Assembly (NCBI GenBank): GCA_009760855.2
Contig: WPIO01000055.1
Coordinates: forward strand, 2,023,501 to 2,087,500
Source of the DNA: Cristatella mucedo
Taxonomy: Eukaryota; Bryozoa; Phylactolaemata; Cristatellidae
Length of the DNA: 64,000 nt
Direction of reading: 5' to 3'
Notes under the pieces: model-generated
The model's database searches: none
Seen by the model: the letters and a program-made list of their open reading frames with translations, nothing else
What the model was told of the DNA's origin: nothing
Translations under genes and position numbers: made by a program
In this document: positions 21,415 through 53,439 of the stretch, piece after piece
How the letters are laid out: each line of letters starts with the position of its first letter
Position numbering within the stretch: the stretch's first letter is position 1

Positions 21415-21724
<310 letters not shown>

Positions 21725-21794
21725 AGTTTGCAAAGTGGCGAGGGAGCTCTCGAGAGCTGTTTCGGGAGCAAGCGGTGAATGCCGACCTAGATCG

Positions 21795-23215: not shown

Positions 23216-23289
23216 TAGATATAGATAAAGATATTTCTCTACTTTGACCTTGAGGCTGACCTTAGACTAGTAGCTAAGCAGAGGGAACA

Positions 23290-25437: not shown

Positions 25438-25785
25438 TGATAATAATAATAATATATTTGATAAAGTGCCCTCAGTTAACTCAATCTCTTTCTAGGCGCT
25501 TTATCTTTGCTGCAAAGGAAGCATGATCGAATGGTTGGTGGTAGAATGCTCAGTAAACAACAAGAATAATATGGTTAAGGGTGACATGCACAGGGTCCGC
25601 CTGCAAGTGTGCTTAGTGGCAGCATGCACAGTGTCAGCATGCATAAGCACATAGAAGTCGAATCACAAGGACCCCCTGAATACTGTGATGAATAGGTGCA
25701 TTTTTAATTTCTTTTTAAATGTGGTCAAGTCAAAAGATGTGAAGCAAGTCGGGAGTGAATTCCAGCCTTCGGGAGCATATTTTAG
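25438..25785 (-). mobile_element. LINE family 2, 3' end
   Basis: An (AAT)n tail, then TTTCTAGGCGCTTTATC, GGTGACATGCACAGGGTC and AGCAAGTCGGGAGTGAATTC, antisense. It ends about 250 nt before the first exon of WRN copy 2. Confidence 0.85.
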
Positions 25786-26032
25786 CGTGGATGAGCAGCG
25801 TGCATGTTTTAGGTCACCGTCGGCGGCTGAAAACTCGCTTGCATGTCACCTGTGGCGCGCACTTGCCGAAGCTCGATCATTCGGGGTCAAAGCCCACTGC
25901 GCCATAGGGTTTTATGTTGGCGTCAGCAGCATTGGTTCGAGCAGTCACAACTGTTGATATTGTGCATGGAAGTTTACTAAGAAGCAGCCGTACCTTTGCA
26001 GGATCTGGTCGGTGCACTATCGTATTTGACAG

Positions 26033-26192
26033 ACTGCTTTCAACAGCAGGCAAAGAGTCGTCCGCCTTGCCGCCATCGTCTGTCACTCCTTCGTTGCCTG
26101 CTGCCCAGCTTCCTGCACCCCGAAGGAATGCCGAGGAATCGCCGATGATGGATCTGGGTGGCGAAGTGCGAGATTTGCTGACGGCTGTGATG
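26033..26192 (+). CDS. WRN-like copy 2, exon 1: start of RQC
   Basis: Acceptor cgtatttgacag|A and donor GTGATG|gtaatt, phase 2 in and 0 out. It starts LLSTAGK where copy 1 starts LLSAANG, then a Pro/Ser/Ala-rich stretch, then [16 protein letters not shown] (copy 1 VDLGPEAKLLLTAVK). A frame stop at 25905-25907 limits the exon; the AG at 26000-26001 is a less likely alternative acceptor. Confidence 0.72.
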
Positions 26193-29100
26193 GTAATTTG
26201 CTTAGCTGCTCACTTCATCTGACCCGTGAAAGATAAGCTACTGTTCGTTCGTCCTTGACCTTGACTCCATGACCGTACAAGAGATGTTGCATGCATGCCG
26301 TAGCTGCTCGTCGGTTTGTTGTGCCGCCTCTACCGATCCCTGACTGAGTAGTGGAACGTTTATGAACGAAGCCCGTACTGTTTATAATGTCTGGCTAGCC
26401 GACCGCGAAATAGTGCAAGCTCTCGGGCGCAGGGCACGAGTGTGGCTGGCTGTATAGTGTGGCACCAAAGTTTGCCGGTGTGGTACCGAGGTCGAGCCAA
26501 CAGTGGCATGACCGTTAATCCTGTGGCCTACAGGCTAGAGAAAAAACTCAGCTGCTTTTATGCATCCACAGGCTGATCCCAAATCTGCCATATCATAAGA
26601 TGCTCCTTAGGTGTAAACCTGATGTCTCTTTATTGAATTGAGTGATACATGTAGGTTCGTGCACACCCTTCGTGTCAGCCAGGCAGGTGAATGTATCTCC
26701 GTCACTAACTCCACAAAGTCATAAAGACCATGTGGGTGTTACGCAGGAGAGTTTTGTATAGCCCACTCACAGCCTAGGCGGCTTTCGGTTCGCATTCGGT
26801 AGCCAACAGACTTCGTCTCACGCAACAAAGAGAAAGTGGGAAGCATAGCAGAGTTAGGAGAGCAGTTGAGGTAGTGAGTATCATGGAAGTAGCAGTTCAG
26901 GACCGCTGAAAAAGATGTGCCGTAGTCGGCAGTTGGAGAGTAGATGTCGTTTCGTAAGAATTGTGGAAGCGAGTTCCACAGTCTAGGAATGGATAGACTG
27001 CCTCTCATTGTTGGTGTGTTGAATGGCTGGTGGGTAGGGCACGTTTTCGTAGTATCTAGATTGTGACACAGCTTGCTCCTGCGTCTGTCGAAGCAAGTTT
27101 TTCTTTACAACAATTAAGCCCTGCCACCCGTGCATGCCGTGCCGATGAGTTTTCTTACGCATGAAAGCCCGTGTGACTAGCAGCCAACTCGTCCTCTAGC
27201 TCTAGTCATCCGTGCTCCCAAACTACAACTGCTGCTTGGTGGATGAATCTCTTGGTGACTGGTCCATAGTGTTAGTCCTAGACTGTGGAACTCACTTCCA
27301 CAGTTCTTACGCAACGACCACTAAAAATAAAAAAATAAAATCTTAGGTGATTAAACAGCCTCTTTTTGTATAGCGACAGAAGAGCCTTTACGGCTATCAC
27401 CACCGCTTGCAGTGGCGATAAAGAATCGCCCACCGCAGGAATCGAACCCACGACCTCGGGCCGAGGTCGTGAAAAGCAACCGCCTAATCCCAGTGAGCCA
27501 TTGCGGCTCACCGTGAGTAGTGTGATTAACGCGTTGGATCAAACCAAAGTTCTCCAGAAAGTTGAGAAATGAGCTGATCTGGCTTCCGCATAATAATTAT
27601 ATTTGTATTGTTATTATTATTTATTGTTATGTGATGCAATGATTTTAATATTTCTTGTTGCGATTCAGTATAATTGGGGTCTTGCAAATACAGATTAGAG
27701 TTGTTTATTATAATTATAATAAATAATTTAATAAATAAAAGCCTCATTTACATAGCATTCTTAGAGAACTTGATCTCAATCCAGGTGCTTTACATGTGCC
27801 GAAGGGCTTTCCTCCCTGCGCTAAAGAGCAGCCTCGGGCGACTCCTAGCGTGGTGTACACCTTTACTTGATTACTCCGTAATACCTTCGGGTATTCCGCT
27901 GCTATCTTCGCTGTGACTTTTTATGAGCTGTCCTTGGATATGCTACACAAAACAGGACCTGCTTAGCATAAGATGCGATGTCGCCATTAGTCGATACCTA
28001 CCGGCGGGCCTTCTCCGGCGGGTCAGTGAGAACCTTCCTGCATCCTGCGTTCGCCCTATCAACAGCTCGGCTATCAAACCTACGACTCGTAAGTTTAAAG
28101 CGCTAAATAGTACTTGTTGCAGTAGTAGCCCACCCGACGTAGCCCAGCAAGTTGTGAAACGTCGTCCGACGGCCGTTACCAAGGTCCAATTCAAATTCGA
28201 AGAGCCAGCATCCGTCGGGCTAGACGCAAACGGTAGAGAATACGAGCCACTTCATCGCCGTCGCCCAGTTGTTGGACAGCCTTTTAAATTCCGCCTACTA
28301 AATATCCGCTCGCTAAAAACCAAGGGGTTACTTACCCGCAATTAGGTGGTCCAGGAGAAGCTAAATGCATTTCTGCTTACCGAAACTTGGATGACGCCTT
28401 ATTCCAGTAGCTGTATTCCTGAGACCACTCCACCCGGGTTCTCATTCTATCAGTCCATTCGTTCTGACAAGGTTGGTGGCGGGGTTGCAATTGTTGTTCG
28501 CGAATCGTTTGGCTATAAGATGTGCAGTTTCTCGCATGGGCCATCGTTTGAATCGGTTGCTATCAGGTCTTCATCAAAGACAATGCCTCTCACTGTTGTG
28601 ATATACCGGCCTCCCTTCTGGCTGTCTGTCTTAACTTGTTTATAGAGGAGTTTTCAGAGTTCCTCGCTAAAATATTTGTGTGTGACAGGCCGTTACTAAT
28701 TGTAGGAGACTTCAATATTCACTTTAAATACCCTAGCAACAGCCAGGTCCGCTCATTTCTTGACTGTCTGGAGAATCTTGGTTTGGCCCAACACGTTAAT
28801 CATAGCTCCCACGTTGGTGGCCACATTCTAGATCTCGTGATCACTAAGGATGTCCTCCCCACTGACCTTGTGGTGTGCCCACTGACCCTCTCAGATCATT
28901 GTTCGGTCTCGTTTACTGTTCCTGCTTCCTCGTACGTACAGGGCAATGTCGAATTCTTCAAACGACGTAACTTACAAAGCATTGACGTGGACAAGTTTTT
29001 GAAATCTGTTTGTGATGCAGGCCTTCTTGATCTGCATTCAGACTCGACCGACAGCCTCGATACCCTCACTGATGCGATGAACATGATACTCAGGAGTGCT

Positions 29101-32100
29101 CTTGACAAGCATGCCCCCGTTTGCTCTATCCGTGTTCAAAGTCGTCGAGATTGCTTTCAATTTACAAAAAAACTCCTTAAGATGCGCCGTGTTAAGCGCA
29201 GGCTGGAACGTCGCTTCAAGAAATCCGGGTCTGAGGCAGACCTAGTCAATTTTAAAGACTTCCTTCGAGTTTACACCCGAAAGCTTAAAAAAGCCAGGGC
29301 TTATTTTTTCATTAGAAAGCTGAATATCTGCCAGTCGGACACTAAACAGATTTACAAGACAGTAAATCATTTACTGGCCAATGCTGTGAGGTCTGACTCC
29401 CCAGATATTAAGGGCTCAGCCGAAAAGTTTTCAGCCTTCTTTAATGAAAAAAATGTGCACATTTGTGCCTCCATTAAGCCCCCTCCGACCAAAGCAATCG
29501 CCGTTCCTCAACCTGTGATCTTTCTTAAAAGGTTCTTCGATGTTTCTGCCTGTGATGTGGCTACCTTAATAAGGTCTAGCAAAAAGAGCTCGTCTCCTGA
29601 AGACCCTATACCTTCATCTCCGTGGTCTTCACTGGCAGTCGAACTTAGCCCTGCCATAACCCAGATTTGTAATGCTTCTTTGGGAAAAGGGGTCGTCCCC
29701 AAGTCCTTCAAATCGGCAATCGTTAGACCTATTCTTAAAAAGCCTGGATTAGACACAGAGGTCCTAGCAAACTATCGTCCAGTTTCCCTTCTTCCGTTCT
29801 TATCAAAGATTCTTGAAAAAATTGTTGCTAAGCAGCTAGTTGAACGTATTGAAAATAATGGAATGTCAGAAACATTTCAATCAGGGTTCAAGAGGCAGCA
29901 CTCCACTGAAACTGCTCTCCTCCGTGTTAACAATGACATTCTACGTGGCAACGACGATGGGAATGTCACTGCCCTGCTAGATCTGTCTGCTGCCTTCGAC
30001 ACCATTGATAACGAAGTTCTGCTTGAACGATTGAGAACAACGATCGGTCTGGCAGACGAAACACTGGCGTGGTTTAAATCATACTTGTCTGATCGTGTTC
30101 AATCAGTGTGGGGTCAGGTCTCAGACACGAGAAGGGTCACCTGTGGAGTCCCTCAAGGGTCTGTACTCGGTCCCTTGCTGTTCTCTATTTATACACAACC
30201 TCTGGGAAAAGTGATTAATGCCCATGGAATAGGATATCACTTCTATGCTGACGATACTCAGTTGTATTTGTCATTTAAACCGTCGGAATCTGCTGCAGCA
30301 ACTGAGAAACTGAATGCATGCCATGCCGATATTCGATCCTAGATGTCGGAAAACTTCCTGAAATTGAATGACGATAAAACCGAACTGCTGCTCATAGGAC
30401 ACCCTAAGCGTGTGGCTGGATGAAAAGGCTTTGCTCTTCTAATAGGTGATGCTATTGTGCGACCTTCACCACATGCTCGTAATCTAGGTGTCGTGTTCGA
30501 CAGCTGCCTCAATTTCAAAAGCTTCATTCAGAAGACTGCCTCTACAGCTAGCCATCACATCCGATCCCTATCCAAGATTAGAAGCTGTCTCCCACAGTGG
30601 CTTGCAAAAAATTTAACTAGCTCTTTAATTCTGTCTCGGCTTGATTATTGTAATTCCCTTTTGGCTGGGCTGCGAAAGAAAGCTATTATGCCACTACAGC
30701 TGACTATGAATATGGCTGCAAGGCTGGTCTTCAAGTCCCAGCGGTTTGTGCACGTGTGTCCTCTGCTGAAAGAGCTAGAGGATGGTTGCCGGTTGAGCAA
30801 AGGATACAGAGCAAAGTTCTTATGCTGACCCACAAGGCACGCCACGGCTTGGCTCCTTCGTACCTAGCTGAACTGCTGCATCAGTTTCAGCCTGTTCGCG
30901 CCCTCAGGTCCTGTGTGGACAATACATTAGCTGTCCCATTTCTCCGCTTAAAGACAGTTGGCGATAGAAGCTTTAGCTCTGCAGGTCCTAGACTGTGGAA
31001 CTCGCTTCCACAATTCTTACGCAACGACTCTCCAACTGCCGACTATGGCACATCTTTTTCAGCGGTCCTGAACTGCTACTTCTATGCCACTCACTACCTC
31101 AACTGCTCTCCTGACTCTGCTATGCTTCCCACTTTCTCTTTGTTGCGTGAGACGAAGTCTGTTGGCTACCGAATGCGTACCGAAAGCCGCTTAGGCTGTG
31201 AGTGTGCTATACAAAACTCTCCTGCGTAACACCCACCTGGTCTTTATGATTTTGTGGAGTTACTGACGGAGTTACATTACATTACATTAGGGCTGGAACC
31301 TGTGGCTCTGGTTGTTTAAGGCAGGGCACCAGTGGACCAAACCAGGGTGGCATAATTACAGTGCTTCCGTAGATTATATGTAGTTATCAAATAGTTTTAT
31401 ATTATATAATATTTGTATTATAGTTTATTATATAGTTCATGCCTCGAAGCAGTGCATCGTCAGCACTGCCCTCCGAGTTCAGCTTGCTGGCGATGTTGAG
31501 AGTGGTGCAGTTACCGGCTGCAGCGTGCCTTTCTCGAGAGCATAGCTGTGACAGCAATAAGCCGACCGTCTGACGTTTAAGAACCGTTGAAGCTGGCACG
31601 TGGCTCTATTGAGTGGTATTTTGGGTCGGGAGCAGTCAGAAGCCTCTACCGATAGTTGACTGGTTGCTTATGAGCCACGTGGCTTGGATGCTTCGAGACC
31701 ACGTGCTTGCATTCTTCAGGTCATGCATGAGAGGTTCGGTCGACATACGGTGGCACAATTTCTACGAGGTGTCAGTACGCCGAGTCTGGCCAGCAAGATT
31801 GGGAAGTGCGTGTCTCTGCCCGAGTTTGGCTGTGGCAGCTACCGCTCGGAAGCCTTCTGGGTCGCTCTGGGTAAGCAGCATTTGGCCTTGACTTTGTCAT
31901 CTCGTCTCTCCCCTGAGACGCTGCCTGCTGCTCTACAATAATGCCGGTCGCGTCCTTGATTCTTTCAGGAGTTTAGGGTTGTTACCTTAGAGCCAGATTG
32001 CAATTCTGCGTTTAGTCATGCAGTCAGTTTGAGAAGAATGCCAAGCCATTTACCATTACACCGGCACAATAGTATACTTTAGTTTACTGTCGTCTGTTTG

Positions 32101-35100
32101 CAGTTTTTAGTTGCCTCGTAAGCCGTGTCTCATTTGGCTGTGATTGTGGCCAGCCCGATATTACTTTATAGTAAAATAAAAGAAAATAAGGTTTGCTGAT
32201 GTAACTTAGTAATAGTAATGATACAGCGTATATATATGGATACAGCGGATATATTGCTGTGGTTTTTTGCTCTCTTCTTCTTTTTTTAATGGCCACAATT
32301 CAGCAGACGTCGCTATATTTTTTGTAAGTGTGTTGTAAGCTTCGGAAGCATTAGAACTGCTTTTGCATTTGGCATCTCCTTGCATTCGATCGACACATCT
32401 TAGCTTCAACGTTTTGCTTTCTAAGCAAAGTTGTGTTGGGATTTTGACACCACCTCCGGGTTGTTCACAGCTCTGCTGCAGCCAAAGGCTGTATGCACAC
32501 ATGGTCGGCTTGACTAGCGTTCCAAGATCCGGCTACTCGTTACTCCTCATGTTCTTTAATAGCAAGGATAATAATGATACATTTTTATAGAACCCTTCAG
32601 AGAACTGAATCTCTCTCTAGCCACTTTACAGGTGCTGCATATAAAGCATTACCAAATGTTTGGTGGTAATATCCGCAAGCAGCAGGTATAATGTGCAAGC
32701 ACGTACATGCACACGAAGGGCGAATCACGAAGACCCACAAAATCACGAAGACCCACCAAATTCTGTAATAAAAAGGTGCATTTTAAACTTCTTTTTAATT
32801 ATCATCATGTCAGGGGACATTGTGACATGCGTCGGTAGTGAGTTCCAGGCTGTGGGAGCATAGGAACTAAAGGCAGGGTCTCCAACGGTTTTGAGGTTCA
32901 TACGAGGTATGGCTAAACGATTCGAATCAGAACAGCTGGTCGTACGATTCTTGGCCTGGTGGGGGGAGTACTTATAGGTAGGCTGGAGCCAGAGAATGAA
33001 GGGACCTAAAAGTAAGGGACAGAATAGTGAAGTCAATGTGCTGCTTGATTGCGAGCCAGTGCAGGTCGGTGAGAAGTGATGTAATGTGGCAACTGCTACG
33101 AACTCACGACAGATGAGCCTAGCTGCAGAGTTTGGCACCAGTTGAAAGGCTCCTAATTGCATGCACTGGTAGACCAGCAAGCAATGAGTTTCTTTGAGGG
33201 CAATCTTTGAGCTGCCTGATTGTTGAAGTAATGCTGGTAGTGTACATAGTGGGAGCCTGCCTTGTAATGTTGTGCTGAACATGTTCAAGTCGTCAAACGT
33301 CTTCAGCATCACGTGACTGCCTTTTCTTTTTGCAGCCGACCAGCTGATTGCTGATGGCTTCCTGAAGCAGCGATACTACGGCCATATGCCTTGCCTACAG
33401 CTGACCAATGCGGGCCTCAAGTGGCTGAGCACAAACATAGAAGGAACGTTACCGAAAACTATGATGCTTCTACCAAAAGCAGCCTTGATGCATGCACTGG
33501 CTATCAGCAAGACCGATCCTTTGCCATCAATTAGCAGCAATGTGGCTGCTCTCCCGGATGCGCCTGCAACTGATGTTCCGATTTTGCCACGGTAATTTCC
33601 ATGATCGTCAGTGCTGTTTTGCATTTGTGCTCAGCCAGTACCACTAGGCAGCGATGATGGCAAGTATTGTTTACGAGTCAAGGCGTTTTGCTTAATCGAC
33701 GGCAGGCTACTTGGTTTATTGTTGCTCTGCTCTCAAAGAAAAGTTGTGGCACTAGAAAGAAGGGATCTATCGTCATTTGCGTTTGAACTCGCTACCCGAT
33801 AGCAGATACGGAAGCTGCCAGGCTGGGTTATTTGACACTCGGCAGGCTTGATGTCGACTCTTTCCAGCTTTCCATATTCTCGATGGTGTGAGGTACTAGT
33901 TCGATCTGACCAGTGTGCTGGAGAGTTTCGGATTTTGCTAGCTGCTGGATGACCTCGTGGCTCATTGGGCCTATCATCTGTGCTCGGTTCTACATGGCAT
34001 CTGTTTGGTTCCAGTCACCGTTGCGCTCAGCTGGGAATTGCATGCATCTGGTTGCATAGAGCTGGGGCTGACTCTAGTCTGCAGAGCATCGATGCTGCAG
34101 CGGCATGTTGTTGCAGACACACAGCTTCTAGCAGCCCGACCAGCATGCCGTCCTCAGCAGGCAGAACAGGAACGATCATGTCAAACGGTGCGAGCAGTGA
34201 CAAAGAGGTGAGAGAAAGATTCGGCAATCTTATTTTTTCGTTATTTTTGCACTCACTTCCCTAGAGTGCTGCCAGATGGTGACTCGAGAAAATCGCAGGA
34301 CATTGCTTGCGGTGTTAAAGTGCAAGGTTCTGGACCTGCCTCGAACTAGTTGCCTCATGATTGGTACCGACACCAGGCTCTTGCAGTGCTGGCCAAGCTT
34401 TGGGTAACTCAGCCCTTGCAGGAAGATGCTACTGGTGCAGTACGACTGCAAGCGATCATGCAGCGGTGGCCACGTACTGCCACAAGAGAAGCTTCTAGGA
34501 AGCAAGCCATCAGGGTCAGGCTGCTAAGCCGTGATGTAGCTACCCGTGCCAGGCGATCTCCTGTCTGAATCTCGATTTGTCTTGGCTGGGAAGTAGTGCA
34601 GTATCAGACTGCGCCGATGTGACATCATTTGGAATTATTGCAGTGACACAGATGCTCGATACTTGCGGATTGGTATAGCATCACAGGAGTTACGTAGCTG
34701 CATTAATGCTTCAGCAGAGCAATACAAACCTGTTCAAATATGCACGAGGCATAAGCAAGCAGCTTTTTTGCTTCGGATTTTGCAGTTGATAGGCTGTGCC
34801 GGTTGTGAGCCCATTAACACAAATGATGTGAAATGAGGCTGCACTAGAGCTACCTAGCAAGGGTGCGACTGCATTATTGAAATGCCGGAACCATCACACT
34901 TGGTCAAATTATTAGTGTTAGAAATTCTTAGCAGTTTTAGAATTGTAAGCATCATGAACCATGAAACATGTCATAATCTGTTATTTACAAAGTATCAAAT
35001 GCCTTAGTGATGGTTAGTCAATGGTACTTTGGGCTTCGAGTTGTTGCATGCCGAGTTTTACGCTGTGGCTGGTGCTGTCCACGTGCGCCTCTCTATGGCT

Positions 35101-41100: not shown

Positions 41101-44100
41101 AGTTGTGCTCTGATAGGGGTCTTCAGTCGGACGTATTTGGCGACGACGGTACGTCGTCAGTCCCTCAGGTAGGAGACACAATGTTTCCTCCCGTGGATTT
41201 CCTTCCCTTGAATACCGGGCAGATAAGCACTGCAACTTGACGATGCTCCTGAGACCCTTGGGGCATGGTGCTGGCACTGTGTATTCAACATGGCACTTGG
41301 TGTTTAATTAAAACTAATCCAGAACGTTACAGTACCTAATGCAATGAGCTTTTGCAAAGACAGCAGCTTTCTTTTCAAACGAGGCTATAGGCCTAAGCAT
41401 GCTGCTAAGCGTATTCAATATTTTCTCGCTACACTAGTGCATTTAATATAGGCTCATTGGATAAAGGAATGACTTAGTCAGTCTCCAGACCCGAATAACA
41501 TTTTAGTGTCTCAGAGGTGAAGTGGATAATAATGATAACATAATTTATTCGTGTATAGTATATAGCGCTATATAGCGTATATAGCGCCCCAAGAGAACTT
41601 AATCTCTATTCAGGCGCTTCACATATGCCTCTGGGCTCGAGCCCACGACCTCAGCCAGACCTTGGTCGGGTGGGGGGGGGTGAGCACCTTAACCGCTGGA
41701 CCAAACCAGCTCTCCGGATAGCAGCAGAGACGGATTTTCATTTGGCTGACAAGACCTGCAAATTTTTTATGTAGGGGACAACGACCCACAAGACGTTCGT
41801 GTGGGCGTGGCTAGATTTGCAATTATTTAAAAATAATTGCACACTAAGTCATAGTGTTTATTTCGCATACCTCGGCAGTTGTTCATCGAGTGGAATTAAG
41901 ACATAATTTCGTCCAGGTTGCAGCCCTGCTGTCGGAGGGGGACGCAAGTGTCCCCTGCCTGGTTCCCCCTGGTTCGGCCACTGGATAGAGGGCTTAGAGC
42001 TTAAGTGGGTCGCAGGACGTGTAAAGGCTAGCTTTTCCCAAGTTTTCAGGACGTTTCGAGAACTATAAGGTCAAATGTTTGCGAATTGTTATTTTGCTCT
42101 CTTCTCGGGCAGCCGAGACAGGTTATTGGGAATTGTGCTGCATAGCTTCATTTTAGCACTAGAAATAAATATACATGTACTGAAATTTTGCTTAAATTTT
42201 CCATAATCTTATTACATATATTGCGAATGAGCGCAGCAGGTTGCAGTAACACTTTTTTTAACCCAGAATTGGAACTTATTTTTGGATCCAGCCATCGTTT
42301 TAGGCAGCCTCTCTGATACTTTGGCCCTCGAATGTTTGTACACTTCAAATTTCTGTCGTCAGAAGGCAAATATCATTGACACCTTCTGTGGAGCAACGAC
42401 GTAGTACTGCATTTTCAGTTACCAAAAACTGGGAATTGGCTCTCATCGCCCCATTCAATTTATCTTCAGTCGTCGATGGTCAGGTGAACTCTCGCTCTAG
42501 CTCACTCCAAACGAGCCACTTTATTCTGGCCGGGCAGAAAGAAGTCTTCTTTTCTTTAGCATTTCGAGCAATCATACCTTATTCATCTGGTCGACGTCTG
42601 ATCGTTTATGCCAGATTTGGTGCTGTGTAATGGCAGTCGTCAAAGGCATGCCGGTTGGCGATTGTGTGAGGCTAGTCGGTTCTCTGTCGTTTTCATACTA
42701 CTGCTACACACTTGCATACTACTACCTACTACTCCATACTACTGTCATTTCCAAGTACCTCCAAAAACGGACAGTACAGTCATTTGGAAGGCACTGGGAA
42801 AAGGTGGACATCTGCCTTATGTAAAAGAATGTTAAGGGTCGAAGATGCTTTCTCGCGTTAATTTTTTGTTGTATACACTAGTTTTCTGAACGCACCGTCA
42901 TTAAAGGCATTATGTTAATTGGGCATATCTGTTCTTTGTCCGTTGGTCTAATTTTCACAGCATATTACCTGCTACTTAAAATAAGTCGCTGATATTGTTT
43001 GCGCTGGAATGTATATGTATGCATGCTCGTGTGCGTGTGCGTGCGCTGTCTCGAGCATGAGTGTATGCGTATGTGTGTGTTTGTGTGATTGCGCACGTGT
43101 ACATGAGCAGATATATCTAGTTATCTTAAACAAGATTCTGCACAGCATAGTTGAAACATCGATTGGTGAGGCTGTATGCCAAAATCTACTAACCCAGCAA
43201 ATGAGTATGATGGCATATGATAAATGCATGGCTGTGCGTGCAATAACTGTAACTGAGAGCAGATGTTTTTGTATACTGCTGTTCAAGGAGTGGGTGGGAT
43301 GAAGAGGTGTGGAAGAAGGAGGACTTAGCCTGACGTCTATTTCTTTCTAGTTTCCAGCCGTCTCAGCAGAACTTTGACTCCTTTTGTAGTTTCACTCCGA
43401 CAGGGATACCACATCCAAGCTGGCCCATACATTTGTGACAGCCCGTCTTGACTTCTGAAACTCACTGCTTGCAGGTTTTTCGGCCTCGTCAATAAGGTGC
43501 TTACAGTTAGTGCAAAAAGTCGGTAGCCAGGCTTGGCTGTCTTGAGCTTCGTAGTTTTCTAATTATACCTATTGTCACCAACCTGAACTGGCCTCCCCCA
43601 TCAAGCAGTGTATTGACTTCAAGGTTGTTGTCACTCACTTTTAGGTCCCTTCTTACAGGCTCTTGCTGCAGCCTGCTTATTCGAACTGCTTCCCTATCAG
43701 CATAGACATCGTACCCTACCCGTTTTTCTGGCTCAAGCTTTAGCTGTGCTTCCAACTAACCTCACATCCTTTGGAGACTGCGTGTACTGCTTGTATGCCC
43801 AGTAGGCCCAAGTCTGTGGGCTACCGATTTTGAGCTTTGGCAGAACTCATAGATATCGACCTGCAGTCTCGTCAAGTGATACTAAAGTCTGCACCCATGT
43901 TGCCATATTTGGTAGTCTTATCGATATTTAGATATCGATAGTAGCCTTTTGCAATACCCTTGGAGCAGTCTTTCGAATTGATTGTCTTGATTTCACCCGA
44001 AAACAAGCTACCGATGGTGGCAGTAGTCTGTCGCCTACCAGGTACCAAATCTTCCTTTATCTCAGATTTCTCCGATCTCATTTCGATTCTGCATGCAAGA

Positions 44101-47100
44101 AATCGATTCTTCCTCGTTATGCATGATTTCAAAATTCACTGTGATATTTTTTCTGACCCCTTCAGCACTGAATTTTGTGCATTGACTGACTCATTGTCTC
44201 TTGTGGCTCATGTGCATGGCCCTACTCACATCAAGGGTCACACACTCGACACATTTTCTCATACAACTGTACTTTGTCATCACCAATTATTACCAAATCC
44301 TGTTTATCTGACCACATTCAGATCTCATCCAGTCTACAATGTGTGCCCTCTTCCTCCTCTAAAATCACCTATAAATCGCAAAGCCTCAAGACCCTTGACA
44401 TCGATGCCGTCCGTGCTCAGTCCCCCTTCCGTTCTGTCATCATTGGTAGATAGCTACAACACGACACTAGCTGACATGCTCGACAACTTTGCACCTCTGG
44501 CTAAGCGCACTGTCCACCCCCGACCAGATGGCCTATGGTTTAAAACAGACATTAAACTAGCTAGGTCTACTAAGCGCAAGCTTGAAAAAGCATACACAAG
44601 ATCAGGACTAACTGTCTGTCGGCAGGCATACGAGGACTACTGTACGTCATGCCAATCGATCATAGCAAAGGCCAAGTCTAGCTTCTATTAAAACATTGTT
44701 GGCTAAGTCTAGCTTCTATTAAAACATTGTTGAATCACAGGTGCACAATCCAAAAATGCTGATGTCGACGATATATAAAAATTAAAAAATATAATTCATT
44801 TGAATAGCGCCCCAAGAGAACTAAATCTCTATTCAGGCACTTCACATATGCCTCAACCGATGGACCAACCTAGCTCGGCAATCAACCATCTCCTCAACTG
44901 CTCCCAGGTTAGCTCCTTACCTTATGATCCCTGTGATGATCTAGCTGATCGCTTCTCTAGCTTCTTGGTCTAGAAGATTGACAAGATCAGGGAGTCTATC
45001 CCTGCGATGGCAGCATCCCCCCTTGAATGTTGTCCCTCGATTCCTGGCTGCACCTCAATGTCTACATTCAAGCAGGTCACTAGTGATCTCGTCCTGAAGC
45101 TCATATCCCAATCGAAGAAGACAACAAGTCCTCTGGACCCTATTTCCACTGTCCTGCTCCTACGTTGCATTGATCTGCTGCTGCCATGCAAACGAACGGC
45201 ATCAATATGTCATTAGCCTCAGGTCATGTCCCAGCACCTTTCAAAAAAGCTGTAGTCAGGCCACTACTCAAGCCAACGACACTAGAAGACCAAGAGAACT
45301 TGAGCAACTATTTATTTATTTATTTAGCATATTATTAATAATTAAGTAATTACCGCCCAGTCTTCCTTCTACGATTCCTATCAAAGACGCTGGAACGGGT
45401 CGTGGTAGACCAGCTGAACACGTGTTGAAACTTCAAACCTTGCTAGTAAGTTCCAGTCTGGCTTTAGAGCTAATCACTCCACAGAGTCAGCATTGCTTCG
45501 GGTGTATAATGACCTACTTAGGAATGCAGACATGGTTAGAGTATCTCTGCTTATTTTGCTCGATCTTTCGGCAGCTTTTTATACCATTGATCACCAAGTC
45601 CTTCTTGAGCCCCTCACATCTCACCTGGGCATCGCTGGCACTTCTCTGCAATGGTTCAGGTCCTATCACAGTGGAAAACTCCAGAGTATTGATGTGAACG
45701 GACAAAGATCATCCGAGGTACCTCTGAAATATGGGGTACCTCAGGGCTCCGTGCTTGGTACGGTTCTTTTGACGGTTTATACTCTCCCTCTTACCGGTAC
45801 GATTGCCGGGCACAATCTAGGCTTTCACTTCTATGCGGATGATACTCAGTTGTACCTTTGCTTTGATCCCTCCCAGCCTTCGAGCACCTCGAATTCTCCC
45901 AACTCACGTGCTGCATGTATTGATGACATCCGCACATGGATGGCAGCAAATTTTCTTAAATTGAATGATGATAAAACTACCTTACTAGTTATGGAAAAAC
46001 CAAGTGTGATTCAGAATGTGGAAAGGCTGATGCTAAAAATTGCCTCTGCCAGTATAACTCCTGTTGAATCAGCTCGAAATCTAGGTATCATGTTCCAAAG
46101 TGACCTCTCGCTAGACGACCAAATCTGCTCCTCAATAAAGTCGGTCAACCTTCAGATACATAAAATTGCTTAAATTCGGGCTTGTTTAGATAGAGATGCA
46201 ACATCTAAGTTGTTCCATGCATTTTTGACATCCCGTCTCGACTTCTGCAACTCACTGCTTGCTGGCCTTCCGGCATGTGCAATCAGGCGCTTACAGCTGG
46301 TGCAAAACTCTGCAGCTAGGCTCGTCTGTCGTGAGCGGCGCAGTTGCCACGTCACACCCCTTCTCGCAGACCTGCACTGGCTACCAGTCAAGCAACGGAT
46401 TGACTTCAAGGTTTTGCCGCTCACTTTTAGGTCTCTTTATTCTTTGGCTCCAGCCTATCTCTCAGATCTACTCCCCCACCAGGCCAACCACCGTACCACC
46501 CGCTTTTCGGAATCCAGCAGTCTACCAATACCTCGTACAAACCTCAAATCCTTTGGAGACCGTGCATTTGGTTCGTATGCTTCCAAAGCCTGGAACTCAC
46601 TCTCGACTTGCGTCAAGATATCCCTTGGCTTTACCACATTTAAAAAGAATTTTAAAACGTGCCTATTTAGGACAGCATTTAGTGGGTCCCTGCGATTCGT
46701 CCTTCATGTTCTTATGCGTGCTGACACTGTGCATGCTGCCACTAACCACACTTGCATGCTGAACCTGTGCATGTCACCCCTAACCATGCTATTCATGTTG
46801 TTCGTCAAGCATGATACCACTAACCATTCAATCGTGTTTCTTTTGCAGCAAATGTAATGTGCCTAGAAAGAGATTGATTTCTCTGAGGGCACTTTGTCAA
46901 GTGGAATATTATTATTATTATTATTATTATAGTTATCTGGCTTCCGTTCTTGGCAACGCGAATACTTTGATGACTCCCCTTTGTTGTGTGTTAGTGTGAG
47001 TGAGTGTGCAGTCCATTACTAGACTGCAGCCGGAGAGAGTGGGGCTGTTGAGCCAATTATACATTTGCCTGTTCATTTGGGGAGTCATGTTTTTAACAAT

Positions 47101-47293
47101 TCAATTATGTCATGTTCGGACTCCGAGGTCGGACACACCTTTTGTATCTTATGCTGCTTTGGCAGGCTCGAATTGCGCCCTTGTTGCTTCGTGGTATGCC
47201 ATCTATTGTCAAGGTCGATTCAAACCGGCACACCCAGTGTCCCTTCAGTTCGTTGTGGACGCGTGTGTATTGCTGAGTCTCCCAGTTCTGGCT

Positions 47294-47330
<37 letters not shown>

Positions 47331-49147
47331 CATTAGGCAGGCCGTTGTATGGTATAGATCGACGGAAATGTGACAGTTGCTCTTCCGATTAAAGTTGAAA
47401 GTCAAACTAGTCAACGGGATAGCCCTTTGCAATGCCTGACGATCTGCATTTGACGACCAGACTCCTTGTGCATTTTAGTGCTTAGCGGTTGGCAATGTAA
47501 AGTGAAGCATCGTATCATCGTGCAGTTTTGAGCTCTGCTTTTTTGCCAGATCCGATGGTCGGCTCCATAGCTCCGTTGCTGACTCGTGCAGCGCTACGAT
47601 TGCAGCAGCTGGGAGTGGATCCGTCACTACACGTGGCATTCAATGCCTTACCCAAAACCGTCCAGACCTCGTACAATTTGGTGAAAAGCAAAGCAGCTGG
47701 CGTGGTAAGTCTATGCTTTGATTAGCTCCGGCTCGGATGATCCTGCAACTATATGCTGAGCCGCGATGCGCCAGCTGTCCTCGATACCCATCGGTCCTGC
47801 AGTTTGTGCATCCGCTTTATTGCCAAGCATTGCCTAGCTGAAAAGTTTGTAGAATAAAACGATGGTAAGAGGAGAGAGGCAGAAGAGGGGAGAGGAAGTG
47901 TACCTTTTTTACACGATTGCAGGAATTTGCAGCCACGCAAAGGGGACTTCAGCCCATGACAATTACGAAGCACGTGCTAAAGGCGATGGCATCCGGTCTT
48001 CCCGTGGATCATCGAGACTTTTTAATCAGCGATGACATGCTTCGCCGAGCCGAGCAAGTCTTGCGTTCACTGCCACCGACGGCAGCAGCCAGTGAGCAGT
48101 TGTTGCATGCAATGTGTTATCGACATCGTTAGGGACGATAGAACGTGAAGTCGTGACAGAAAACGTGGCATCTGCCGTCTTTATTTGCCAATTAAGCACA
48201 GATTTTTCAGACGTGAACATGCATACTTTGCCGAAGGTGTCATGGAAGTGGCCGGTTCCTCGTGGCAGGCATGCACGTCTGCCTGCCATTTTATTCATCC
48301 TTGCATCTGTCGTTGGTGATGACCATGTCCGTAATGTGGCACACTCGAAGGTTGCTAGAGTTGCTCAGTCGCTGGCAGCGCTCACAGCTAAAGCTTTACC
48401 TGCCGGCACAGGTATATTCGCACGTGCTCGCCTGTGGCTGTATTCAAATAGGGTAATGTTTTGTATCCCAGTCTAGAACTATGCGCAAATCCGCAAGGAC
48501 TATGTTTGTGTTACACAGTGGTGGCTCACTAGGTAAGGTGGTTGTTTTTCACGACATCGGTCCTGAGGTCGTGGGTTCGAAGCTTTTGGTGGGCGATCCT
48601 TTATTGCAGCTTCAAGCAGTGGTGATGGCCTTTAAGGCTCTTTTGTCGCTATATAGAAGAGTTTTCTACATTGCACTCAAATCCCAAGTGACTTTCGGTA
48701 CATATGTGGTAGCTTGCAGACTTAATCTCACATAGCATAGATACAATGAGAAGCATAGCTGAGTCAGGAGGGCAGTTGGAGAAGGGAGTAGCATGGACGT
48801 AGCAGCGCAGGACGTCTGGAAAGGGCAAGCCATAGTCGGCAGCAGGAGTGTAGATGCCGTTGTCTAAGTAAGAGTAGTGGAAGTGAGTTCTACACTGTAG
48901 CACCTTCAGAGCAAAAGCTGTCACCAACGGTGTTAAAGCGGAGGAATGGACCAGCTAATTTATTATCCATAAAGGACCTGCGGGCATGAGGAGGCTGAAA
49001 CTGGTGCAGCAAGGGTTGCCAAGCTGTGGCGGGCCTTGTTTGTCAGTATAACAATTTCGCTCCGTGTTTGTTGATTACCCAGAAGCCATCTAAGCTCCTT
49101 CATCAAAGGAGACACATGGCTAGCTTCTGTTATTGTCTTACCTTGCA

Positions 49148-49225
<78 letters not shown>

Positions 49226-50636
49226 AACACACACACACACACATACACACACCTACCTACCTAAAGCAACGATGAACAATCCGAATGATCCAAGATTGCT
49301 GCCTTGCAGCCCGTGTTTTAGTTTGTAGCTGGCAGGTGTTATGCTGGCAGCCGGCTCTGTTGAGCTTAGGACGAGAACAGGCTGCAGTGCTGCATGCGGT
49401 GATGCCTTCGCGGTCTTCGTATGCACTCACGAGATCCATTTGAGCTGTGCTGTAAGGAGGCCATCTTCACAGCGAGTATTTCTGCTCCTGGGGCACGTTC
49501 TGATCGTCGGCTGCTCAATCAGAGTAGCTCATTGAGGTTCAGCTATGTCTGCTGCTAAACTCACTGAGCGTGTAAATGGTTTTGATCTGTTGACTTTTGA
49601 TGCAATGAGGACGTGAGCATCGTGCATGTTGGCGGCTTTAAATCGCAAGGCTCACATCATTTTTTGTGCACACCGGCGCTACCGTATCTTGTGCACGGCT
49701 CTGGTAGTCCTGTCGTGCTAGTTCGGCACCCGGTTCGGCCAAGCTCTCGCTAATGACTTCCAAAGTGCTACATGTGCATGCTCTACTTCTTGTTCACATT
49801 CTTCATCGATGTATTCTGCAAATGCATCAAGCATTCGTCTGTGGTATTCGTACTAGTACATTCACACATTACACTGTGATCAGTGTCTGCATCTAAGAAC
49901 GTAATGTCAGTCCTTTTTTGTCTTTGTAAGACGCTTTTTTTGCAGCGACTACTTTTACATGGTTCAGTCATGCTTCCTTTGCAGCATGTGTAAAATGCCT
50001 AGAACGAGATTTAGTTCTCTGAGAGTGCTATACAAATTATTATTACTAGTATTATTCTGTTTGTTCGTGCCTATCGGTTGGGTACGTGCTTGTATGGGCT
50101 TATGGTGTATGCTTAATGATGCACTCGCTCGGATGCTCAGATGTCTACTTTGCTGTTAAACGGTTGGATGACTCAGTGCTGCTAACTTCTTACTAGATCA
50201 TTCGCAGTAACACGGTCAGAGTTGATTCATTAATTCGTTGATGAACCGAGCGATCGTCTAATTTTATCTCCCAGGCTAATGTTTTGCAGTTTGGCACCAG
50301 CCGAGGCAGCTATGCCTAGTAAACAGCTATACAGCTGTAGTATCGCTGCAGTGAGCTGAGAACCCCAACTCTTGTGCTGCAGACTCTTGTGCTGTAGCAG
50401 CTTGTTCTTGTCCAGCTGCTTTAATGCTTCCCATCTGCCTTTTTCTTTTTATTACAGACTCGTCCAAATGGCGAGGCATGACAGAAGCCCTGCCCGGCTT
50501 CAAGCCTTATCAGATTATTGCTGCATTGTCCTTGCTGAGGCGCAGTGGCGCCGGCATCACTGTGCCTCAGCAAGGAGGCAGTGATGCGTCCGTCAGAGCG
50601 TTGTACTTTTATGGTCCAGATGGTCCTACCCATTGA
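26033..50636 (+). CDS. WRN-like paralogous module (copy 2): RQC, HRDC and HTH domains, nine exons, no helicase core found
   Basis: Joined exons 26033-26192, 31720-31870, 33336-33591, 34117-34207, 39237-39337, 41009-41168, 47609-47704, 47923-48091 and 50458-50636 give one open frame of about 453 residues. Exon order and all phases equal those of copy 1, and exons 2 and 6 have identical lengths (151 and 160 nt). Seen: [16 protein letters not shown] and [14 protein letters not shown] (RQC start), [15 protein letters not shown] and [12 protein letters not shown] (RQC end), [17 protein letters not shown] (HRDC), [19 protein letters not shown] (HTH) and a short tail ending DGPTH. The basic terminal motif of copy 1 is absent. 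The WRN DNA-contact Ser and second Arg of the RQC, and the wing-tip Phe, are replaced. Intact frames and splice sites in a diverged sequence suggest selection. It could be a separate gene or an alternative C-terminal module of copy 1. Confidence 0.78.
26193..26689. other. Intron 1 of copy 2, 5' part
   Basis: No feature recognised before the LINE fragment that begins at 26690. Confidence 0.5.
26690..27015 (-). mobile_element. LINE family 1, 3' end
   Basis: Antisense copy of the last part of ORF2 ([40 protein letters not shown]) and 3' UTR, close in sequence to the copies at 31 kb and 53.8 kb. Confidence 0.88.
27260..27315 (+). mobile_element. LINE family 1, short fragment
   Basis: GTCCTAGACTGTGGAACTC and TTCTTACGCAACGACCA match the [12 protein letters not shown] codons; cut off by the SINE-A insertion that follows. 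Confidence 0.65.
27330..27510 (-). mobile_element. SINE-A, tRNA-derived
   Basis: On the minus strand: a tRNA-like head with A-box-like TGGCTCACTGG and B-box GGTTCGATTCC, then a body GCCGTAAAGGCTCTTCTGTC and a TTTAATC/A-rich end. Other copies at 36509 and 48520. A genuine tRNA gene is unlikely because no cloverleaf closes. Confidence 0.8.
27511..27595 (-). mobile_element. LINE family 1, endonuclease-domain fragment
   Basis: GTGATTAACGCGTTGGATC, CCAAAGTTCTCCAGA and GAAATGAGCTGATCTGGCT match the family 1 copy at 57070-57135. Confidence 0.75.
27735..27810 (-). mobile_element. SINE-B 3' part
   Basis: CATTTACATAGCATTCTTAG, GAACTTGATCTCAATCCAG and GTGCTTTACATGTGCC, the LINE-like tail region of SINE-B; the tRNA head is missing. 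Confidence 0.6.
27925..31290 (+). mobile_element. LINE family 1 (CR1/L2-type), longest copy, defective
   Basis: Domains in order: AP-endonuclease ([45 protein letters not shown]), reverse transcriptase ([69 protein letters not shown]), the L2-type C-terminal domain ([21 protein letters not shown]) and an ATTACATTACATT tail. Broken by a stop at 28343-28345, a frameshift near 28610-28650, stops near 30340 and 30421 and a frameshift in the C-terminal domain. It sits in intron 1 of WRN copy 2, in sense orientation. Not mobile in its present form. Confidence 0.93.
28636..30342 (+). pseudogene. LINE family 1 ORF2 segment: endonuclease end plus reverse transcriptase
   Basis: An open stretch of 568 codons. 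It keeps the endonuclease GDFNIH and SDH motifs and the RT active-site FYADD. In the antisense copy at 55.4-57.5 kb the frame continues upstream and downstream, which shows that the stop at 30340-30342 and the upstream frame change are mutations of this copy. Confidence 0.9.
31291..31719. other. Intron 1 of copy 2, 3' part
   Basis: An AT-rich stretch (31380-31440) and nothing else recognisable before the exon 2 acceptor. Confidence 0.5.
31720..31870 (+). CDS. WRN-like copy 2, exon 2: RQC winged-helix core
   Basis: Acceptor gcattcttcag|GTC, donor GCTCTGG|gtaagc, 151 nt as in copy 1. It reads [17 protein letters not shown] and [16 protein letters not shown] is kept, but the following Ser is Val and the later Arg position is Ser, so two human DNA contacts are lost. 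Confidence 0.85.
31871..32564. other. Intron 2 of copy 2, 5' part
   Basis: No recognised feature. Confidence 0.5.
32565..33260 (-). mobile_element. LINE family 2, 3' end with C-terminal domain
   Basis: Antisense [20 protein letters not shown] and a degenerate [13 protein letters not shown]-type segment, 3' UTR on the low-coordinate side. An older and more diverged copy than that at 35.8 kb. It ends about 75 nt before exon 3. Confidence 0.8.
33336..33591 (+). CDS. WRN-like copy 2, exon 3: end of RQC with beta-wing, linker
   Basis: Acceptor cttttctttttgcag|CC, donor CCACG|gtaatt. [20 protein letters not shown] and [13 protein letters not shown] align with human RQLITEGF...KFMKICALTKKGRNWL almost without gaps. 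The wing-tip Phe-Met pair of human WRN is His-Met here. A linker of about 50 residues follows. Confidence 0.87.
33592..34116. other. Intron 3 of copy 2
   Basis: No recognised feature; 525 nt without transposon sequence. Confidence 0.5.
34117..34207 (+). CDS. WRN-like copy 2, exon 4: linker (tentative)
   Basis: Acceptor gttgttgcag|A and donor AAAGAG|gtgaga give phase 2 in and 0 out, as exon 4 of copy 1 does. It encodes about 30 Ser/Thr-rich residues ending GASSDKE, without clear similarity to copy 1. Chosen by phase and splice sites only. Confidence 0.5.
34208..35821. other. Intron 4 of copy 2, 5' part
   Basis: No gene, LINE or SINE recognised. The segment at 35480-35820 is AT-rich with oligo-A runs. 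Confidence 0.5.
35822..36508 (-). mobile_element. LINE family 2, 3' part, split by a SINE
   Basis: (ATT)n tail, 3' UTR and the C-terminal domain ([25 protein letters not shown]-type end) antisense. A 23-bp stretch around 36410-36440 (CACGACAGACAAGCCT) is tandemly duplicated. The element continues at 36680 beyond the SINE-A insertion. Confidence 0.88.
36509..36679 (+). mobile_element. SINE-A inserted into LINE family 2
   Basis: It carries the B-box GGTTTGATTCC, GCCGTAAAGGCTCTTCTGTC and an AT-rich end. Flanked by a TAAGCA target-site duplication (36503-36508 and 36680-36685); the LINE reads continuously when the insertion is skipped. Confidence 0.88.
36680..36935 (-). mobile_element. LINE family 2, RT C-terminal segment (continuation)
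   Basis: Antisense [20 protein letters not shown] and [20 protein letters not shown]-type codons, the part of ORF2 that follows the RT. It is the same insertion as 35822-36508. Confidence 0.88.
36941..37013. repeat. Tandem duplication, period 39
   Basis: TACATTAATCAGGAAAGGGT plus CGATCATG occurs at 36941 and again at 36980, with one G/T difference just after. Confidence 0.9.
37632..37663. repeat. Inverted repeat, 13-bp arms, 5-nt loop
   Basis: CTTTTTAAGGGTGG, then GCGTG, then CCACCCTTAAAAG; one unpaired T. Possibly a terminal hairpin of an unidentified element. Confidence 0.85.
37980..38886 (+). mobile_element. LINE family 1, C-terminal domain and 3' end
   Basis: [19 protein letters not shown] onward, through [20 protein letters not shown] to the [11 protein letters not shown] end and a TACATTGCATT tail. 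Several frameshifts; 5'-truncated just before the end of the RT domain. Confidence 0.88.
38887..39236. other. Intron 4 of copy 2, 3' end
   Basis: No recognised feature apart from the pyrimidine tract before exon 5. Confidence 0.5.
39237..39337 (+). CDS. WRN-like copy 2, exon 5: first half of HRDC
   Basis: Pyrimidine-rich acceptor ending cttttattaag|ATT, donor CACAG|gtatgg, phase 0 in and 2 out. It encodes [12 protein letters not shown] and [15 protein letters not shown] aligns with human VDMAKMR at the same split Arg codon. Six residues shorter than in copy 1. An alternative acceptor AG at 39244-39245 would also keep the frame. Confidence 0.68.
39735..40490 (+). mobile_element. LINE family 2, C-terminal domain and 3' end
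   Basis: An open frame of 177 codons (39736-40269) reads [40 protein letters not shown] and [14 protein letters not shown] before its stop. 3' UTR and TTATTATTATTATT tail follow. One of the least damaged C-terminal domains of the family; in intron 5 of copy 2. Confidence 0.9.
40741..40935 (-). mobile_element. LINE family 2, 3'-UTR fragment
   Basis: A clean (AAT)n tail of about ten units, GCGCCCTCAGAGAACTTAAT, TTTAGGCGCTTTACATT and the 3' UTR, antisense, ending about 75 nt before exon 6 of copy 2. Confidence 0.85.
41009..41168 (+). CDS. WRN-like copy 2, exon 6: second half of HRDC
   Basis: Acceptor gcatcttgcag|G, donor CCTCAG|gtagga, 160 nt as in copy 1. It reads [20 protein letters not shown], then [19 protein letters not shown], matching human PTTVENVKRIDGVSEGKA and HFCQTNSVQTDLF. 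A LINE fragment ends about 75 nt upstream of the acceptor. Confidence 0.88.
41545..41720 (-). mobile_element. SINE-B, tRNA-derived with LINE family 2 tail
   Basis: On the minus strand: A-box TGGTCCAGCGG, B-box-like GGGCTCGAGCC, then GTGAAGCGCCTGAATAGAG, ATTAAGTTCTCTTGGGGCG and an AT-rich end. The tail matches the family 2 LINE 3' end (GCGCCTAGAAAGAGATTAAG, TTCTCTGAGGGCGC). The clearest copy together with 56478-56628. Confidence 0.85.
41721..43384. other. Intron 6 of copy 2, interval without recognised gene
   Basis: It contains an alternating TG/CG stretch at 43010-43090. A short frame reading WKALGKG at about 42780 is discussed among the rejected items. Confidence 0.5.
43385..43830 (+). mobile_element. 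LINE family 2, degenerate C-terminal domain
   Basis: Recognisable as DNA: ACCACATCCAAGCTGG, CGTCTTGACTTCTGAAACTC, TGTATTGACTTCAAGG and ACATCCTTTGGAGAC; numerous stops. An old copy directly upstream of a better one. Confidence 0.75.
44772..44870 (-). mobile_element. SINE-B, internally deleted, inside LINE family 2
   Basis: ATTCATTTGAATAGCGCCCC, CTCTATTCAGGCACTTCAC, then directly ACCGATGGACCAACCTAGCT; the region with the B-box is deleted. Confidence 0.75.
45493..46173 (+). pseudogene. LINE family 2 reverse transcriptase segment
   Basis: 226 codons open, with the RT palm motifs and FYADD intact, followed by [19 protein letters not shown]. The stop at 46171-46173 replaces the Lys codon seen in the copy at 51.3 kb (IAKIRA). 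It cannot express a complete ORF2. Confidence 0.88.
46921..47608. other. Intron 6 of copy 2, 3' part
   Basis: It contains an (AAT)n microsatellite (47297-47330). No other feature recognised. Confidence 0.5.
47297..47330 (+). repeat. (AAT)n microsatellite
   Basis: About eleven AAT units, without recognisable LINE sequence on either side, unlike the other AAT tracts in this window. Confidence 0.9.
47609..47704 (+). CDS. WRN-like copy 2, exon 7: start of HTH
   Basis: Acceptor gattgcagcag|CTG, with an alternative CAG acceptor 3 nt upstream (47606); donor GGCGTG|gtaagt. It reads [19 protein letters not shown], against LPDTVQTTYVMLQCEGQSL in copy 1. The tandem NAGNAG-type acceptor would add or drop one Gln. 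Confidence 0.8.
47923..48091 (+). CDS. WRN-like copy 2, exon 8: HTH domain
   Basis: Acceptor acacgattgcag|GAA, donor GCAGCCA|gtgagc, phase 0 in and 1 out. [20 protein letters not shown] matches human LPLMTIGMHLSQAVKAG. The PPVNS motif is replaced by LPPTAAA. Reading through the donor meets a stop at 48130-48132, so splicing is required. Confidence 0.85.
48092..48519. other. Intron 8 of copy 2, 5' part
   Basis: A 120-codon open frame (48114-48476) overlaps the end of exon 8 in another phase. No family was recognised and it is not called a gene. Confidence 0.45.
48520..48680 (+). mobile_element. SINE-A, tRNA-derived
   Basis: A-box TGGCTCACTAGG, B-box GGTTCGAAGC (one change), GGTGATGGCCTTTAAGGCTC and TTTTGTCGCTATAT. 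More diverged than the copies at 27.3 and 36.5 kb. Confidence 0.75.
48681..49112 (-). mobile_element. LINE family 1, degenerate C-terminal domain
   Basis: Antisense [20 protein letters not shown], then AAGTGAGTTCTACACTGTAG and GGACCTGCGGGCATGAGGAG. Frame broken repeatedly. Confidence 0.75.
49149..49250 (+). repeat. (TA)n then (CA)n microsatellite
   Basis: About 75 bp of AT dinucleotides with two CAT interruptions, followed by a short ACACAC stretch. It lies in the last intron of WRN copy 2. Confidence 0.95.
49251..49959. other. Intron 8 of copy 2, interval without recognised feature
   Basis: Nothing recognised. Confidence 0.5.
49960..50055 (+). mobile_element. LINE family 2, 3' tip
   Basis: CTTTGCAGCATGTGTAAAATG, GAACGAGATTTAGTTCTCTG and an ATTATTATTACTA tail. 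Confidence 0.7.
50458..50636 (+). CDS. WRN-like copy 2, terminal exon: end of HTH and short tail
   Basis: Acceptor tttttattacag|AC, TGA at 50634-50636. [20 protein letters not shown] and [10 protein letters not shown] align with copy 1 VSRLSAIKAALPDYTYEQI and VAILEHEYG. The tail stops about 25 residues later and lacks the KRLLPTWF and poly-Lys motifs, unless a further exon exists downstream. Confidence 0.8.
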
Positions 50637-51290
50637 GTACTGGCCTGCCTATATAGCAGGTAGCAGCACAGGAAGCAAATCTCTGGTCTCACTTGGAGGC
50701 CACTGTGGCTCTGGAAGGACGGCCGAGTGGTCTAGGTCATACAATGAGAGGTCACCGAGAGGTCAACAATGAGAGGCCACCGGTGGCCTGAGCTTGCACC
50801 GATGCTTGTCTAGCCAGCGGATTCTGTGTACCTGCAATGTGCTGCAATGCTGACTGCTGAATATCGCTTATGCTGCACTCGTGGGCATGTCAGTATGTCG
50901 TGTGCCGCACGTCCAGTAAGCTGTCATCCACGGCTGGACTGCATCCTTTACGAACTTGACGATAGAAACCATCATGAGAGCCATTTTGCCTTTGCCCATA
51001 TCTTCTGTCTCTGTGAGTCTCCTTACATCATGTGCAGTTTTGGTACGGCGTGTAATTAAATGCAGTTTATTTTTCGACAATAACTATTCAATCAGCGGAT
51101 ATTGACTTTTATACCGATCTGTCACAGCTGTCAGCCTGAGTAATTGCTCTGGATGCAACCTCTAACAGCTGCAGGCAATCGGTAACAGCTGAGCAACCCC
51201 TTAACCCCTGCACCTAAGCTGTCCAATATTAGGGTCCTGCAGACATTCCGATTTGTACACCAAAGTTTTTGTTTGCGTCAGACTGAACTT
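50637..51290. other. Downstream flank of copy 2
   Basis: A short internal repeat of AATGAGAGGTCACCG/AATGAGAGGCCACCG at 50743-50786. AATTAAA near 51054-51060 is a possible but weak polyadenylation signal. No gene recognised. Confidence 0.45.
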
Positions 51291-51294
51291 CTCA

Positions 51295-52445: not shown

Positions 52446-52499
52446 TTATTAACCCTAAAATGGTAGAGAAACGACTCTGGCGTGTGTACGGATCCTGTT

Positions 52500-52880: not shown

Positions 52881-52984
52881 CCGACGATTAAGGTACTAGC
52901 AGTGAGTCCTGAATTCGCGGCATCTCGGTATTCTAGATGAGATGGAGTGACATATGAAAGCCGAGACTGCGTTTGGCGACGGTA

Positions 52985-53425: not shown

Positions 53426-53439
53426 AAAAGGGACCCTTT

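Follow-up and report, generated by a model that had tools for sequence, protein, structure and literature searches.

A second, diverged series of WRN C-terminal exons downstream of the WRN 3′ end in Cristatella mucedo

The DNA analysed here is a single window of 64,000 nucleotides from the bryozoan Cristatella mucedo (assembly GCA_009760855.2, contig WPIO01000055.1, positions 2,023,501 to 2,087,500 of the forward strand), and all coordinates below are positions within that window. Using exon models built from the DNA, Pfam and a PDB match, we identified the last nine exons of a WRN gene at 621-9501 on the forward strand, hereafter copy 1. Exons 1 to 5 lie at 621-717, 2223-2373, 3562-3868, 4270-4369 and 5323-5441, and exons 6 to 9 at 5723-5882, 7498-7590, 7726-7888 and 8435-9501 (stop included). 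The first 460 residues of the encoded protein were searched; they correspond to human WRN residues 949-1369 in PDB entry 9hzg (E 2.3e-50) and contain the RQC (6.9e-17), HRDC (3.6e-11) and HTH_40 (1e-14) domains, all above the Pfam cut-off. The C-terminal end of copy 1 also resembles that of the human protein, as a human WRN tail compared with the window matches 9406-9477 (E 0.006). Judged by these similarities, copy 1 is a genuine WRN 3′ end, and its helicase exons presumably lie before the start of the window.

Downstream of this gene, on the same strand, we observe a second series of nine exons, copy 2. Exon 1 (26033-26192) encodes the start of the RQC winged helix and contains in-frame ATGs at 26145 and 26148, exon 2 (31720-31870) continues the RQC domain, and exon 3 (33336-33591) encodes the RQC beta-wing and a linker, with a His at the position of human Phe1037. 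Two exons are uncertain: exon 4 (34078-34207), a linker exon whose phase and donor fit and whose acceptor is weak, and exon 5 (39237-39337), which fits in phase and would encode the first half of HRDC. The second half of HRDC is encoded by exon 6 (41009-41168), which has an alternative donor after 41148. Exon 7 (47606-47704) has an alternative start at 47550, exon 8 (47923-48091) encodes the HTH_40 helix-turn-helix, and exon 9 (50458-50636) is a terminal exon that carries a stop and no WRN tail.

A preliminary description of this DNA had proposed that the nine-exon series of the WRN gene is repeated here in the same order and phases, and the series could be rebuilt from the DNA on these terms. 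The intron phases 2,0,1,2,0,2,0,0,1 are common to the two copies (9 of 9 equal), with exons in the same order on the same strand; for exons 4, 5 and 7 of copy 2 this match is partly built in, because their sites were picked to fit the phases. The identical lengths reported for exon 2 (151 nt) and exon 6 (160 nt) are true of both copies. Likewise, copy 2 was said to be free of early stops and to have canonical splice sites, and we find GT-AG at all 16 introns of the two models and joined frames that are open up to the terminal stop in both copies, that of copy 2 measuring 1404 nt past its first base with the stop counted. The frame is kept when exons 4 and 5 of copy 2 are skipped together, and the alternative splice between exons 6 and 7 (41148 to 47550) is equally open. 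At the protein level the copies are clearly diverged, as had also been noted, with 27% identity over 479 columns by blastp (E 5e-41, a pairwise value). The same exon order and phases, with exons 4 and 5 uncertain, are what a paralogue of the local WRN gene would have. A retrocopy is ruled out by the eight introns of the copy 2 model.

The window also contains several repeated elements. LINE pieces with reverse transcriptase matches lie at 28552-30342, 45418-46170 and 51205-52275 on the forward strand and at about 15.3-15.9 kb on the reverse strand; one LINE ORF is 596 aa long, and related ORFs occur in both orientations across the window, including 53.8-57.6 kb on the reverse strand. The end of the window (58501-64000) is mostly GC- and CpG-rich, with (GCC)35 at 61199-61303, a 12-base array at 59746-59888 and a long CT tract, and no Pfam domain was found there in the five of six frames scanned. 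Between the copies themselves there are 11 nucleotide matches at E up to 0.01 and none of them falls in exons: nine come from one repeat of copy 1 intron 6, and the other two lie in copy 1 introns 1 and 2. The copy 2 region contains six stretches of at least 90 bases that match the intron 6 repeat (6479-6704), with identities of 72-81%. Since this repeat is common to both regions, both ends fit one genome. Its recurrence, together with a 64 kb sequence that contains no N, argues against an assembly misjoin of two unlinked loci, by which copy 2 would be real and its tandem layout would not, and we consider such a misjoin very improbable.

The similarity of each copy 2 exon was compared with chance by taking as nulls open AG..GT segments from 24-56 kb that match it in phase and are of about its length, with the nulls of exon 9 running to a stop. 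Seven of the nine exons (1, 2, 3, 6, 7, 8 and 9) beat every null, in sets of 206 to 582 segments each: 483 of 483 for exon 1, 389 of 389 for exon 2, 360 of 360 for exon 3, 477 of 477 for exon 6, 582 of 582 for exon 7, 379 of 379 for exon 8 and, narrowly (36 against 34), 206 of 206 for exon 9. Exon 4 was not above chance, with 353 of 526 nulls equally good, and neither was exon 5 alone, with 100 of 517. Once joined to exon 6, exon 5 takes the first two places among 248 entries (its frame starting at 39246, then at 39237), by a margin of about 1 bit. Nothing clear was found as a better exon 5 at 33.6-41 kb, and the present exon 5 was absent from the top rows when pieces of human WRN, of copy 1 and of a consensus were used to search this interval.

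A profile built from human WRN and copy 1, with copy 2 left out, was run on 2088 six-frame ORFs and recovered exon 6 (E 6e-8), exon 2 (E 1.6e-7), exon 8 (E 4.6e-5) and exon 3 (E 1.3e-4), the best ORF outside both copies on either strand having E 1.5. The ORFs of exon 7 (E 4.7) and exon 1 (E 9.2) were not significant with this profile, and those of exons 4, 5 and 9 were not among the best 24 listed. With a profile that included both copies we found no third copy in the window (best further ORF E 0.58). An assembly of chance open segments, picked to resemble a gene, could account for exons 4 and 5 on similarity alone. However, the seven other exons beat every null while standing in order and in phase, which makes chance an extremely improbable source of the series.

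At the domain level, the best PDB match of copy 2 is again human WRN in 9hzg, at residues 953-1331 (E 7.7e-19). The RQC winged helix scores 49.6 bits against a Pfam cut-off of 23, and the C-terminal HTH_40, a domain also carried by the Bacillus protein YpbB, scores 28.9 bits against a cut-off of 27 (E 1.4e-6 on the joined protein). HRDC is matched at Pfam positions 32-67 of 68, with 22.4 bits vs a cut-off of 23.8. Of the complete RQC-HRDC-HTH module given in the preliminary description, the RQC and HTH_40 parts therefore stand above the Pfam cut-off and HRDC does not; because only its second half was found, and below the cut-off, “complete” is too strong a word. The similarity of exons 4 and 5 does not exceed chance, and no tail like that of copy 1 was found after copy 2, the best non-self match of the copy 1 tail in the window having E 0.45.

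Two residues of the RQC domain deserve attention. In the 9hzg alignment, human Arg993 and Phe1037 are replaced in copy 2 by Ser and His, respectively. Copy 1 has Asn at 993 and Phe at 1037, so that the loss of Arg993 is not special to copy 2. The pI of the RQC domain is 7.8 in copy 2 vs 9.9 in copy 1. For human WRN, PMC3409678 describes no DNA binding by gel shift and much less unwinding for R993A and F1037A; when either mutant was combined with the wild type, unwinding was more than additive, which its authors read as hetero-oligomers. Judging from its residues, the copy 2 RQC would keep its fold and lose the strand-separating function.

Rates were compared between the copies for the seven better-supported exons, which align over 341 codons. 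The copies are identical at.50 of first,.56 of second and.35 of third codon positions, and protein identity is.32. Neutral simulations, with substitutions only and starting from copy 1, gave.58 at all three codon positions when run to the same protein identity; all of the 300 runs also produced 4 stops or more (mean 9.7), and the observed number is 0 in 341 codons. A dN/dS near 1, together with a lack of transcripts across the junctions, had been named in the preliminary description as a result contrary to a retained module. We obtained 0.13 by maximum likelihood (dN 0.90, dS 6.7) and 0.38 by NG86 (dN 0.75, dS 1.96), dS being saturated in both. Saturation of the third positions, with 31 of 42 four-fold sites differing between copies, limits any estimate of how fast copy 2 itself has changed. 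At the 119 columns where human WRN equals copy 1, copy 2 agrees in 56 (47%); the neutral expectation at these columns is 19% after one change per site, with about 17 stops, and 39% after half a change per site, with about 13 stops.

Scored against a splice-site consensus, the splice sites of copy 2 are about as strong as those of copy 1; the acceptors of exons 4 and 7 are weak, and by the same consensus the donors of all 8 introns fall in the top 0.3-5.3% of GT sites. No pseudogene marks (stops, frame breaks or lost splice sites) are present in the copy 2 model. The codon-position bias, the open frames and the splice sites argue for long constraint, which probably covered most of the history of copy 2; a recent loss of function is possible.

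Copy 2 is also the faster branch, at 0.99 Kimura units vs 0.38 for copy 1; on 373 shared columns, with no outgroup, identity is.340 between the copies,.319 between human and copy 1, and.239 between human and copy 2. The longer branch would fit copy 2 being what is left of another full-length WRN gene, with the front exons gone and function newly lost; the WRN tail and the part of HRDC that were sought in copy 2 without success would fit such a relic as well. Set against this are the joined exons, which contain no stop or frame break, and the strength of the eight donors. Moreover, a copy 1 that evolves neutrally in simulation has already gained a mean of 3.3 stops at 0.1 changes per site, with 2 of 60 runs free of stops and indels uncounted. 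We therefore regard a recently dead relic as unlikely.

In the 16.5 kb between the copies, no Pfam domain was found in the three forward frames of 9502-26034, and the reverse strand of 9600-26034 gave only reverse transcriptase and a sub-threshold Swc3 match (17600-26032, reverse strand; 16.6 bits, cut-off 26.3). The place of the Swc3 match fits a 308-base AG-rich array with ACAG stretches (21416-21723), and the match probably reflects sequence composition. Helicase, zinc and exonuclease domains were accordingly not found between the copies by Pfam in six frames. Beyond copy 2, the helicase core (DEAD, Helicase_C) was not found by Pfam on the forward strand of 50998-64000, and tblastn of human WRN against the window gave no helicase-part match better than E 6.1. 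The idea that the interval between the copies contains a further full WRN gene, helicase included, was rejected, as no helicase was found by Pfam on either strand or by tblastn. The sensitivity of such scans is limited: a stop-masked Pfam scan of 1-5902, which contains copy 1 exons 1-6, gave RQC (2.4e-6) and HRDC (0.053) only. As the scan missed the weaker copy 1 exons, short or diverged exons between the copies could escape it.

This intervening region contains a full-length metazoan 7SL (SRP) RNA gene (19317-19615, forward strand, 241.6 bits), with a T run after it; a bacterial-type promoter scan near the gene gave nothing useful. Around it, CpG is undepleted over 18001-21500, with an observed/expected ratio of 1.03-1.29 in 7 of 7 windows of 500 bases. 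Over 24-58.5 kb, CpG is mostly depleted, and 4 of 69 windows of this size are at 1.0 or more. Taken as a CpG-island promoter or as an unmethylated invertebrate intergenic stretch, the 18-21.5 kb block suggests that there is a boundary here and that copy 2 is a unit of its own. The copy 1 gene, however, contains a like block (3001-4500, GC 63-68%, CpG o/e 1.02-1.14) around its exons 3 and 4, so normal CpG is not in itself a sign of a gene boundary, and the block at 18-21.5 kb may simply be due to the 7SL gene. Under a narrow donor rule, 18-26 kb contains six open ATG..GT candidates for copy 2 first exons, none of them convincing. Translation from the ATG at 26145 or 26148, which sit at the start of the RQC fold, would give a protein of 430 or 429 residues and need no upstream exon. 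Because exon 1 has kept an incoming phase, an upstream exon is required unless translation starts at one of these two ATGs.

The upstream exons could potentially be those of WRN itself, with copy 2 serving as an alternative C-terminal cassette and the helicase exons being spliced to either copy 1 or copy 2. The two copies have the same starting phase and similar 5′ residues (LLSAANG in copy 1, LLSTAGK in copy 2), so that a donor suited to exon 1 of copy 1 could be joined in frame to that of copy 2 as well; in addition, the scans found no helicase domain in the sequence directly before copy 2, and the 37 exon 1 codons ahead of the first ATG are open. However, an equal phase is expected from any duplication too, and splicing to copy 2 must skip nine exons including a terminal one and cross 16.5 kb with a 7SL gene and a CpG-normal block. 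The fusion with copy 2 would also be a helicase without the strand-separating Phe. We consider alternative splicing of this kind rather unlikely.

The reading we favor, with chances that we place at about even, is that copy 2 is an old tandem partial duplicate of the WRN 3′ part that forms its own helicase-free gene and acts in trans. The 3′ part of WRN would have been duplicated in tandem, and copy 2 would then have diverged and been kept by selection without helicase, zinc and exonuclease parts. As its own transcription unit, it would have a predicted start at about 18-26 kb and a predicted helicase-free product of about 430-470 residues that combines the RQC fold with half or more of the HRDC fold and with HTH_40. 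This protein could bind the partners of the WRN C-terminus, or WRN itself, in trans, and would modulate or target the WRN helicase instead of unwinding DNA; modulation rather than unwinding is proposed because the copy 2 RQC is without the strand-separating Phe and the DNA-binding Arg. Its transcription as a gene of its own, its action in trans and its regulation of WRN are inferred, and its pairing with WRN or WRN partners, to tune or target the helicase, would follow by analogy with YpbB/RecS and with the hetero-oligomers proposed for human WRN.

Compared with the human WRN C-terminus, copy 2 has the same domain order of RQC, HRDC and helix-turn-helix region. It differs in the replacement of Phe1037 and Arg993, in an HRDC that is recognised over half its length and in a tail that was not found, as were the helicase, zinc and exonuclease parts between the copies. 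A functional parallel is bacterial: Bacillus YpbB is a separate protein with similarity to the last ~300 residues of long RecQs, and its gene is next to that of the RecS helicase; YpbB forms a stable complex with RecS and is targeted to forks (PMC3000357). Copy 2 would be similar in being a separate RecQ-type tail encoded beside a helicase. The two cases differ in that YpbB lies upstream in one operon with RecS, itself a small RecQ paralogue, and in that the WRN helicase gene here retains its own tail.

Partial RecQ duplicates are also found in an animal, as RECQ2-B to RECQ2-G of Daphnia (PMC2680839). These are the mirror image of copy 2, consisting of helicase domains only with no RQC or HRDC, and many of them are called likely pseudogenes in that paper. 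Drosophila WRNexo (PMC3636389) is likewise a single WRN module encoded alone, with the difference that it is the exonuclease module and not the C-terminal one. The preliminary description had known of no tandem WRN C-terminal module in animals. In agreement with this, the titles and abstract openings listed in searches of open-licence literature showed neither a tandem WRN C-terminal copy nor a helicase-free RQC-HRDC gene in an animal.

What the C-terminal module of WRN does independently of the motor is poorly defined, and the precise function of HRDC is called unclear in the review PMC4212688. It is possible, though we hold it to be rather unlikely, that the WRN locus of C. mucedo codes for two exchangeable C-terminal modules, one strand-separating (copy 1) and one not (copy 2), or for a dedicated regulator that joins in trans. 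As an alternative tail, copy 2 would amount to a tail swap made by nature in a RecQ helicase. If it is instead a separate gene as we propose, copy 2 would be an animal counterpart of the YpbB/RecS system, and such a natural, conserved copy, helicase-free and altered in the unwinding hairpin, would separate the binding or targeting role from unwinding in a living animal.
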